Of a stretch of DNA of 64,000 bases, positions 14,233-61,584 are shown piece by piece. Where the stretch lies: positions 1 to 64,000 of the forward strand of contig JAITVV010000029.1 of NCBI GenBank assembly GCA_031285625.1, in the 5' to 3' direction. Position 1 is the stretch's first letter. Every line of letters starts with the position of its first letter. This stretch comes from Prevotella sp. (GTDB taxonomy: Bacteria > Bacteroidota > Bacteroidia > Bacteroidales > Dysgonomonadaceae). Under the pieces are notes generated by a model. The model did no database searches. It was not told the origin of the DNA and saw only the letters and a list, made by a program, of their open reading frames with translations. A program made the position numbers and the translations under genes.

Positions 14233-14251
14233 AAAAATTATCTATTATATA

Positions 14252-14285
14252 GAGCTATTAGCTGATAGCTTTTAGCCATTAGCTC
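14252..14285 (+). promoter_or_regulatory. Imperfect hairpin in the susC-susD spacer
   Basis: GAGCTATTAGCT pairs imperfectly with AGCCATTAGCTC across about 10 nt, just after the susC stop. A hairpin here could lower readthrough or protect the susC mRNA 3' end, giving unequal SusC and SusD levels. A 51-bp palindromic element follows at once (14290-14340). Confidence 0.4.
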
Positions 14286-14289
14286 AAGG

Positions 14290-14340
14290 AAAAAGTAACA
14301 ATTAAAAATATACGAAAAGGTGTCACCTTTGTCACTTTTT
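14290..14340 (+). repeat. 51-bp palindromic element, copy 1
   Basis: Arms AAAAAGTAACA (14290-14300) and TGTCACTTTTT (14330-14340) are near-complements; the right half contains CACCTTTG, one base from a -7 box. The same layout occurs at 23642-23692 (inverted) and 50238-50285. It lies 23 bp upstream of the SusD-like start. Confidence 0.75.
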
Positions 14341-14362
14341 AACAAAATAGAAATTTCACATT

Positions 14363-23034: not shown

Positions 23035-23628
23035 TTAAGAATTATTTAATTTATCTAGAATATAGTCTACTCTGGCCTGAGTTACTTCAGGACGCCGTTT
23101 CTTATTATAGAAATATGGGTTCTGCATCATTAGGATAAGTTCTATAAGTTCTGCATCATTTAAAGCTGTAATTTTCTTATCGAAATATTGTGCAGATGCA
23201 TTGTGTACACCAATTATCTTGTTGGGAAATTCTTTCTGGGCAGCATAGTAATTCAAACATTCCTTTTGTGATGCATAATTTTCTGTCAGATTTGTAAGTA
23301 ATGTCATATCAAAGCCTATATGTCGCAGATACCAGCCTTCATATGCTGCTTCCCGGCATGGGCACTGATTATATGCTTTTCCAAATTCACGATTAAATAG
23401 GTACATCCACGAATTGGTTTCTAATGCATCGGGAAAGATTATATTATAAATTTCATAAAACCTGTCGGGTAATTCGGTACTATTCTTAATCTCTGCAATG
23501 TATTCTTCCCTGTCTGCTTTATCAATAAGAAAATAACCTCCGAATTTAATAAAAGAAAATAATCCGATAATAAGTATTACCGAAACAATGCAGAGTGTTA
23601 CTGGTATTTTCTTTTTTCTTTTCATCAT
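23035..23628 (-). CDS. Small membrane protein with a degenerate GT51 transglycosylase-like region
   Basis: About 197 residues from the ATG at 23628 (23625 is also possible). The frame is open to 23787, but that extension translates dispersed repeat A (reads FVILNVMKNPDPL) and is not coding. A Lys/Arg-rich start and one transmembrane helix (VTLCIVSVILIIGLFSFIKFGGYFL) give a type II membrane topology. The C-terminal part, ASAQYFDKKITALNDAELIEL followed by ILMMQNPYFYNKKRRP and ARVDYILDKL, follows the conserved end of GT51 peptidoglycan glycosyltransferases. The GT51 catalytic EDxxFxxHxG motif is not visible, so activity is doubtful. Its place inside the hut cluster has no obvious metabolic reason. 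Confidence 0.75.
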   Translation of the reverse strand: MMKRKKKIPVTLCIVSVILIIGLFSFIKFGGYFLIDKADREEYIAEIKNSTELPDRFYEIYNIIFPDALETNSWMYLFNREFGKAYNQCPCREAAYEGWYLRHIGFDMTLLTNLTENYASQKECLNYYAAQKEFPNKIIGVHNASAQYFDKKITALNDAELIELILMMQNPYFYNKKRRPEVTQARVDYILDKLNNS

Positions 23629-23641
23629 AGATTTAATTGTT

Positions 23642-23692
23642 AAAAGGTGACAAAGGTAACGCCTTTTTGTATGTTTTTTATCTGTTACTTTT
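23642..23692 (-). repeat. 51-bp palindromic element, copy 2 (inverted), with a perfect -7 box
   Basis: On the minus strand it reads GAAAAGTAACA ... TGTCACCTTTT, matching copies at 14290 and 50238. Its minus-strand TACCTTTG (complement 23651-23658) exactly fits TAnnTTTG and would start transcription near 23645, just before the ATG at 23628. It abuts repeat A copy 2. Confidence 0.75.
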
Positions 23693-23774
23693 CTTGTCAT
23701 GTTGAACGGAGTGAAACATCTCGTGTCTAGAGGGTCGGGATTCTTCATTACATTCAGAATGACAAAAAGAGTAA
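23685..23774. repeat. Dispersed repeat A, copy 2
   Basis: About 90 bp, closely similar to the copy at 15948-16039 (shared block GTTGAACGGAGTGAAACATC and shared end CAGAATGACAAA). Imperfect dyad with TTACTTTTCTT and AAAAAGAGTAA at the ends. Lies in the spacer between hutI and the small membrane-protein gene. Confidence 0.85.
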
Positions 23775-50081: not shown

Positions 50082-50237
50082 AATTATATTTTTTAATTAT
50101 AGCGTAAATCTACATATAAGAAATATTTTTATCTGAGCAGAATGGGTGAGTCGCATATATGAAATGGTGAACTAAGTATTAAAAGTTATAAAGGATAATT
50201 CCTTAGATTTATCTATTATAGGTTAACGTTATCGAAT

Positions 50238-50285
50238 AAAAAGTAACACTGAAAACTATATAAAAGTGTCACTTTTGTCACTTTT
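50238..50285 (+). repeat. 51-bp palindromic element, copy 3
   Basis: AAAAAGTAACA (50238-50248 or so) and TGTCACTTTTT (50276-50286) repeat the arms of copy 1 at 14290, with the same order of inner parts (AAAAGTGTCAC after an AT-rich spacer). Contains CACTTTTG, one base from a -7 box. Confidence 0.75.
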
Positions 50286-50370
50286 TATGATGATCATTTA
50301 ATAGATATATTACAGGCCATCGTAACAATAATTTAACCGGAATATATTCTGTTTTTATGTTAAATGAGTG

Positions 50371-50378
50371 TAACTTTG
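50371..50378 (+). promoter_or_regulatory. -7 promoter box TAACTTTG of the ATPase gene
   Basis: Exact TAnnTTTG match, embedded in AGTGTAACTTTGTC and a following CTCTTTTTA, which is a degenerate copy of the right arm of the 51-bp element. Transcription would start near 50384, about 59 bp before the ATG. Confidence 0.55.
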
Positions 50379-50442
50379 TCTCTTTTTATATAACTATTAT
50401 AGGTATTAAATCGTTAAACTGAGATATAAACAATATATAAGA

Positions 50443-61541: not shown

Positions 61542-61584
61542 GAAAAAGTGATACATTATCACTATATTTACGCCACTTTTTAAT
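61542..61584 (+). repeat. Degenerate copy of the 51-bp palindromic element
   Basis: AAAAAGTGATAC near 61552 and GCCACTTTTTAATAA at the right end echo the arms of the element, with TATATTTA at the place of the -7 box (61563-61570). It lies 13 bp before the third chaperone gene and may give it a separate promoter. Confidence 0.5.

Follow-up and report, generated by a model that had tools for sequence, protein, structure and literature searches.

What kind of element is the 51-bp palindrome at positions 14290-14340 of a Dysgonomonas genome, and is it a promoter? The window analysed here is the whole 64,000-nucleotide stretch of DNA that holds it, and its genome is referred to as G000. The initial annotation described a palindrome with a -7 promoter box in five places, and proposed a dispersed, possibly mobile promoter or a shared regulon site. 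We find that it is a short repeat with about 170 occurrences in its Dysgonomonas host genome, that the 51-bp palindrome is one of its forms, and that the repeat belongs to Dysgonomonas and to one or more related genera. The assignment of the window to Dysgonomonas follows from its cation ATPase. More than a simple promoter, the repeat resembles a group of putative protein-binding sites that became dispersed within a single bacterial family. No paper titled on this repeat was found in the open-access literature on Dysgonomonas intergenic repeats or promoters and regulons, and we read it as a new intergenic repeat whose related kinds are the BOX, REP and Correia repeats.

Three of the five places proposed in the window hold real copies (profile scores of 39-46), and two do not (Table 1). 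When three mismatches or fewer are allowed, the right half GTCACYTTTGTCACTTTTT occurs three times in the window and on average 0.01 times in shuffled sequences. All three real copies lie upstream of a gene and point towards it, as had been proposed; a perfect or near TAnnTTTG box had been described for every copy, and among these three it is perfect at 23642 (TACCTTTG); the other two read CACCTTTG and CACTTTTG. At 14252-14286 the self-pairing word AGAGCTATTAGCTGATAGCTTTTAGCCATTAGCTC acts as a filler that separates the upstream motif from the left box, and words resembling it occur in gaps of four relatives (G003, G005, G007 and G019). A stretch GTCATGTTGAACGGAGTGAAACATCTCG ... CATTCAGAATGACA at 23690-23770 adjoins the element there and resembles a second repeat family found in many gaps.

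The site at 50366-50390, proposed as a degenerate copy, was rejected: it scores -3.5 and its promoter box aligns with five relatives. Judged from this alignment, it is the predicted conserved promoter of the cation ATPase gene itself. The sequence GTAACTTTG, slightly altered in some of the relatives, can be aligned between the window and all five of them, and so can a GTAACAAT-A-TTAAC block that lies upstream of it. No element lies within 400 nt upstream of the ATPase gene in L071, L075, L115 and L128; in the fifth relative, D. mossii (L072), there is one about 300-350 nt upstream and it points away. The GTAACAAT-A-TTAAC block and the TAACTTTG box, together at 50321-50378 of the window, look like a conserved operator plus promoter.

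Table 1. Repeat copies and neighbouring features in the window. Scores are those of the best placement under a profile built on 834 kb of the host genome.
Feature	Position	Strand	Remark
Copy 1	14290-14340	+	Score 45.8
ORF before copy 1			1066 aa, SusC-like judged by position and size
Upstream motif TTATCTATTATA of the long repeat, copy 1	14238-14249	+	5 nt past the stop codon of the preceding ORF
Left box AAAAAGTAACA, copy 1	14290-14300	+	
Inner box TGTCACCTT and outer box TGTCACTTTTT, copy 1	14321-14340	+	9 bp apart; includes CACCTTTG, one base off TAnnTTTG
Gap before SusD-like gene, filled by the repeat	14233-14362	+	130 bp; same junction in relative L128 is 20 nt
Copy 2	23642-23693	-	Score 41.3
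Left box, copy 2	23683-23693	-	
Inner and outer boxes GTTACCTTTGTCACCTTTT, copy 2	23642-23661	-	ATG 13 bp on
Gene after copy 2	ATG at 23628	-	Start read by eye; transglycosylase domain
Copy 3	50238-50286	+	Score 43.2
Upstream motif TTTATCTATTAT, copy 3	50208-50219	+	
Left box AAAAAGTAACA, copy 3	50238-50248	+	
Inner and outer boxes TGTCACTTT-TGTCACTTTTT, copy 3	50267-50286	+	
Native box TAACTTTG of cation ATPase gene	50371-50378	+	Outside the repeat family; aligned in five relatives
No repeat copy	61542-61584	+	Element profile score -16.6

On the scale of the genome, the pattern GTYACYTTTGTYACYTTTT has 165 matches in the host and its reversed form has 1, and in 24 congeners it has from 0 to 476 matches per genome. 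Outside the genus, a single one of the family's 12 other genera has matches (4), and 24 genomes of other families have none. The pattern GTNACNNNTGTNACYTTTT is present in 21 of the 25 genus genomes (172 in G000, with a maximum of 511), and GTNACYTTTGTNACYTTTT matches 8 of 295 genomes across the order: two Dysgonomonas (172 and 53), a related genus of the same family (G029, 27) and five with a single match each. Exact matches to one 19-mer were absent from viral contigs. On a tree of AroB and FolP from 24 genomes, in which 5 of 21 inner branches are well supported, the 12 genomes with at least 40 copies all fall in an 18-genome group of modest support; the zero-copy G009 and G020, whose genomes are incomplete, adjoin this group, and G013 has 1 copy, yet is grouped with G019 (351) and G003 (313).

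A profile scan of 834 kb gave 181 hits, compared with 1 when the sequence was reversed, and iterative profiling, with palindromes counted on both strands merged, gave 93 distinct elements in the same 834 kb. The 116 hits of an nhmmer profile were rejected as a copy number because that profile drifted into the second repeat family. Forty stretches of G000 were selected for strict sites; since stretches were chosen for copies, per-gap fractions are inflated, and orientation, spacing and covariation should not be. Genes were called by script as ATG open reading frames of at least 60 or at least 80 aa.

The core of the element in G000 consists of a left box, 20 bp, and then two right boxes 9 bp apart, and it is set in a repeat of about 110 bp that runs from an upstream TTRTCTWATA motif through a variable stretch, the left box AAAAGTNACA and a 20-bp A-rich spacer to the right boxes. 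Its consensus is AAAARGTRACA, the spacer, TGTTACTTT and TGTCACYTTTT; some copies carry three right units, and co-directional rows of copies can occur. Spacing is narrow, with 73 of 89 pairs of left and inner box within 80 nt being 18-21 bp apart and 41 exactly 20. Among 86 strict sites, counted after removal of duplicates, 65 have the upstream motif AAATTATCTAATA in their upstream flank, and in 52 of these 65 flanks the motif, as AAATTRTCTWATA, lies 62-77 bp before the inner box. In its strict form it is found on the element strand at 52 of the 93 elements and on the opposite strand at 1, and it starts 6-8 nt past the end of the upstream gene in 8 of 49 cases. On the 3' side, some flanks carry another GTNAC box, located by motif search at a distance of about 60-100 nt; once these flanks were excluded, the 3' motif was weak and without clear consensus (log-likelihood 57 versus 36 for one shuffle). 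In 5 of 93 elements the 110 nt on the downstream side include a reverse copy of the upstream motif. Dispersed copies align across 90-140 bp at about 70-83% identity (1,179 rows, which are not independent), and are therefore descended from a longer unit. As a terminal-repeat test for a MITE, the arms do form an inverted repeat, but homology extends upstream of them and the ends of the repeat unit are not fixed; junctions with relatives are too diverged to read a target site duplication.

Comparison among species separates the common part of the repeat from its local form. All nine genomes compared share the right-box pair TGTNACYTT-TGTNACYTTTT, 9 bp apart, with three boxes in some copies. A left box at 18-22 bp is frequent in G000 (74/95 sites), G017 (12/14) and G024 (23/32), and rare in G005 (1/18), G012 (0/12), G003 (1/16), G008 (0/24), G019 (3/40) and G029 (2/25). 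Because it is common in only three of the nine genomes, the palindromic form belongs to certain species, and what all of them share is the pair of right boxes. At the same sites the TTRTCT-type upstream motif was found as follows: G000 65/95, G017 12/14, G024 14/32, G005 4/18, G012 2/12, G003 7/16, G008 1/24, G019 11/40 and G029 20/25. Thirteen G029 copies were inspected by eye, of which 12 have three right boxes and 9 have an upstream TTTATCTAT. Two loci show unusual layouts: in L173 (G008:C4) six right-hand units stand 117-165 bp apart with similar spacers, a picture of tandem growth, and in L266 (G018, upstream of folP) one copy appears to have its inner and outer boxes separated by about 50 bp of filler, which looks like an insertion into the element.

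The two arms could also form a hairpin, and the repeat would then be an RNA element within the transcript, such as a processing site, attenuator or leader. Orientation following transcription fits this reading, and the arms do pair in several of ten folds; nine of the ten z-scores, however, range from -0.3 to -1.7, and the one at -3.55 belongs to a copy with self-pairing filler. The R/Y position of the arms varies independently, with left R versus outer Y giving A-T 27, A-C 24, G-C 13 and G-T 9 (p=0.49) and left R versus inner Y giving p=1. For the N position, the left arm is associated with the outer box (p=0.03, nominal, one of four left-arm comparisons) and not with the inner box (p=0.38), but the commonest left-outer pair is the mismatch A-C (32/73). 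Moreover, the left arm is missing from most copies in six relatives, many of the distant copies have a canonical promoter box downstream of them, and Rfam gave no match in the window or in 12 loci. The hairpin reading was rejected on the oriented covariation test, the folds and Rfam, and an RNA element of any of these kinds is highly improbable. We read the arms, which show no pairing-directed covariation, as sites that would be read by a putative protein.

In gaps of at least 100 bp lie 88 of the 93 elements, and in tandem gaps of G000 59 elements run with the genes and 2 against them (p=2e-15); the corresponding counts in seven other genomes are 68 and 5. The claim that copies stand upstream of a gene and point to it thus holds for 59 of 61 tandem-gap elements in the 834 kb, as it does for the three in the window. 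By gap type, copies occupy 51 of 188 tandem gaps, 18 of 78 divergent ones and 4 of 20 convergent ones (rates inflated by the choice of stretches). The convergent gaps are defined by script-called ORFs; one of the four with copies (L068) is doubtful and probably reflects a false ORF call, because a 1107-aa ORF lies on the strand of the element. Two elements share a gap in 15 of 286 gaps of at least 100 bp, and 14 of the 15 neighbouring pairs point the same way.

Gaps that hold a copy are wider than those of relatives that do not. The gap before the SusD-like gene is one case (Table 1), and another gene pair is 184 bp apart in G000 versus 6 nt in G005. Upstream of aroB the gap is 93 bp with a copy in G000, and without a copy it is 6, 8, 15 and 27 bp in G016, G009, G021 and G023, respectively (lengths taken from an automatic stop search). 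At this junction the element is present in 13 of 24 genomes by pattern and in three more by eye (G002, G011 and G015), and G004, G006, G013 and G020 carry other sequence. In the zero-copy G020 (L248) a different repeat-like stretch, GTCATTGCGAAC...GCAATGACG, stands where others hold the element. At the folP junction the pattern is found in 2 of 20 genomes, and the upstream sequence differs in most. The description of the sequence as dispersed, gene-oriented and possibly mobile is supported by the pattern counts against the reversed form, the orientation in tandem gaps, the aroB gaps and the homology of dispersed copies.

The promoter question can be examined against the genome's own canonical boxes. 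Primary-sigma promoters of Bacteroidota are described as -7 TAnnTTTG and -33 TTTG (PMC7366714). In G000 canonical TAnnTTTG boxes are visible, for the most part 20-50 nt ahead of gene starts, and TTG is over-represented at spacer 19-20 from them. If the inner box were the -7 element of the primary sigma, as initially proposed, each copy would start a transcript into the next gene. It matches TAnnTTTG perfectly in 61 of the 93 G000 copies and, across seven relatives, in 71 of 109 copies (G008 13/13, G005 5/5, G003 12/15, G019 23/31, G017 7/12, G024 11/23 and G012 0/10), copies point towards a gene, in 36 genes the distance from copy to start is 13-85 nt, a range in which canonical boxes are found too, and in G024 the box is present in 4 of 4 close copies versus 4 of 10 further ones. 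In G000, however, box quality is independent of distance, being perfect in 26 of 39 copies within 90 nt of the start codon versus 30 of 44 further away (p=1.0). Nor is there enrichment of a -33 motif: TTG at spacer 19/20 is found in 3 of 93 elements versus 24 of 162 canonical boxes. This is a weak argument, because a -33 motif is not shared by the whole phylum and was likewise not found in Flavobacterium johnsoniae (PMC7366714). The copies of G012 also lack the box altogether, the aroB copies of G011 and G015 read TTACTTTCG, and copies occur in convergent gaps. Distant copies (at least 90 nt) have a canonical box between them and the start in 18 of 30 genes (comparison: 79 of 177 genes without an element and 15 of 216 operon-like genes), whereas 31 of 36 genes with a copy less than 90 nt from the start have no other canonical box in between. 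A promoter role may thus apply to some copies, such as those close to their gene; as a general statement, the claim that the element is a promoter carrying a -7 box has at most weak support, and a housekeeping promoter in every copy is unlikely.

A second kind of promoter would be one for an ECF-type alternative sigma factor, in which the left and inner boxes are the two recognition boxes at a fixed 20-bp spacing and serve many genes as a secondary promoter. Such a promoter would account for the fixed spacing and orientation, the dialects described below and the co-occurrence at orthologous genes, but a left box at the right spacing is rare in six of nine genomes and the downstream genes are mixed. 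We regard it as very unlikely.

Whether the element stays with particular genes was examined in 91 orthologous pairs, of which 12 have the element on both sides, 6 in G000 alone, 7 in the relative alone and 66 in neither (p=2e-6), so that 12 both-positive pairs compare with 3.8 expected (18x19/91). Counted by gene the figures are 11/6/6/45 (p=5e-5), and with the 15 ATPase rows that were left out they become 14/19/7/66. The G000 stretches and most of those of the relatives were picked for holding copies, and hence the test is not one on random genes; within such enriched stretches the site is kept at orthologous genes, as in a regulon of a transcription factor. Box sequence differs by species at these genes, for example GTTAC...GTCAC in G000 versus GTAAC...GTAAC in G012. 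Functional relatedness of the targets was not seen among the 30 of 73 downstream proteins scanned, of which 23 have a Pfam match and 7 have none, with mixed functions (DNA ligase, ribose-5-P isomerase, DHQ synthase, DsbA, MFS and others). The notion of a shared site is thus partly supported: orthologues and dialects speak for it, the mixed functions downstream do not.

Several known families of intergenic repeat share features with this one. REP/BIME and REPIN sequences with their RAYT partners (PMC2817692, PMC3116915, PMC3733652) resemble it in their more than 100 extragenic palindromic copies and their arrays. REPs in BIMEs are reported to alternate, whereas Dysgonomonas copies that share a gap point the same way, and the arms do not covary as pairs in the R/Y and N comparisons given above. 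A RAYT/REP origin was rejected since several repeat-rich genomes lack Y1_Tnp (PF01797): no match at E<=0.001 was found in G000 (172 copies), G019 (351), G007 (207), G005 (119) or G017 (87). Matches were obtained in 10 of 25 genus genomes, both copy-rich (G008 511, G003 313, G018 185, G024 181 and, weakly, G014 97) and copy-poor (G012 47, G015 20, G001 9, G013 1 and G020 0). BOX of Streptococcus pneumoniae (PMC3049150) is also intergenic, variable in module number and found in few related species, and the Dysgonomonas repeat is likewise dispersed, intergenic and modular with a variable number of modules. The likeness is one of layout. BOX elements are described there as 60.8% on the leading strand, over-represented between convergent genes and rich in extensive secondary structures, in contrast to the co-directional copies seen here, which are not concentrated in convergent gaps and whose arms lack pairing covariation. 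Correia repeat enclosed elements of Neisseria, also intergenic and dispersed, are reported to generate promoters and to bind a protein (PMC2649163); unlike in that description, the promoter box is not kept in the copies of G012.

A purely selfish miniature repeat without function, in which orientation reflects purging of harmful orientations, would agree with the homology among dispersed copies, with the single copy in G013, which is grouped with copy-rich G003 and G019, and with the other repeat words held by the gaps. It accords less well with the preserved box spacing, the dialects at orthologous positions and the co-occurrence at orthologous genes, and G000 is without a Y1 transposase; we consider it improbable.

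What is established for the repeat is its copy number, its orientation and spacing, its species dialects and its joint presence at orthologous genes, as are gaps wider than in element-free relatives, homology of dispersed copies past the boxes, and arms without pairing-directed covariation. The reading that we favour, with confidence just short of even, is a non-autonomous dispersed intergenic repeat with oriented putative protein-binding boxes, acting on DNA as a one-way upstream or boundary element; that no autonomous partner was found counts against it, as do the rarity of the left box in six of nine genomes, the nominal association of left and outer N, and the close copies with no other canonical box before the start. 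A unit of about 110 bp would have been copied from gap to gap in the past, and copies facing against transcription would have been removed or never made. The boxes would be the DNA sites of a putative protein, and the array, in many cases lying ahead of the promoter that belongs to the gene, would act at the DNA level in this one-way role on the transcription unit that follows.

Co-direction with genes, a location between genes that are close neighbours in relatives, box spacing without arm pairing and species dialects point to a trans-acting protein that tracks hundreds of sites. A bolder and rather doubtful extension of the favoured reading is a family-wide system of one-way boundary arrays, in which a putative DNA-binding protein would be matched by hundreds of oriented GTNAC-box arrays inserted between genes, with box sequence changing in step genome-wide, so that many a transcription unit would possess a boundary or upstream element of its own to which the protein binds. 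Such arrays would also have been placed between genes that are only a few bases apart in relatives. Promoter annotation in Dysgonomonas is affected, as boxes of the repeat can pass for -7 elements, and the repeat would offer a testable case of a repeat becoming part of gene control.
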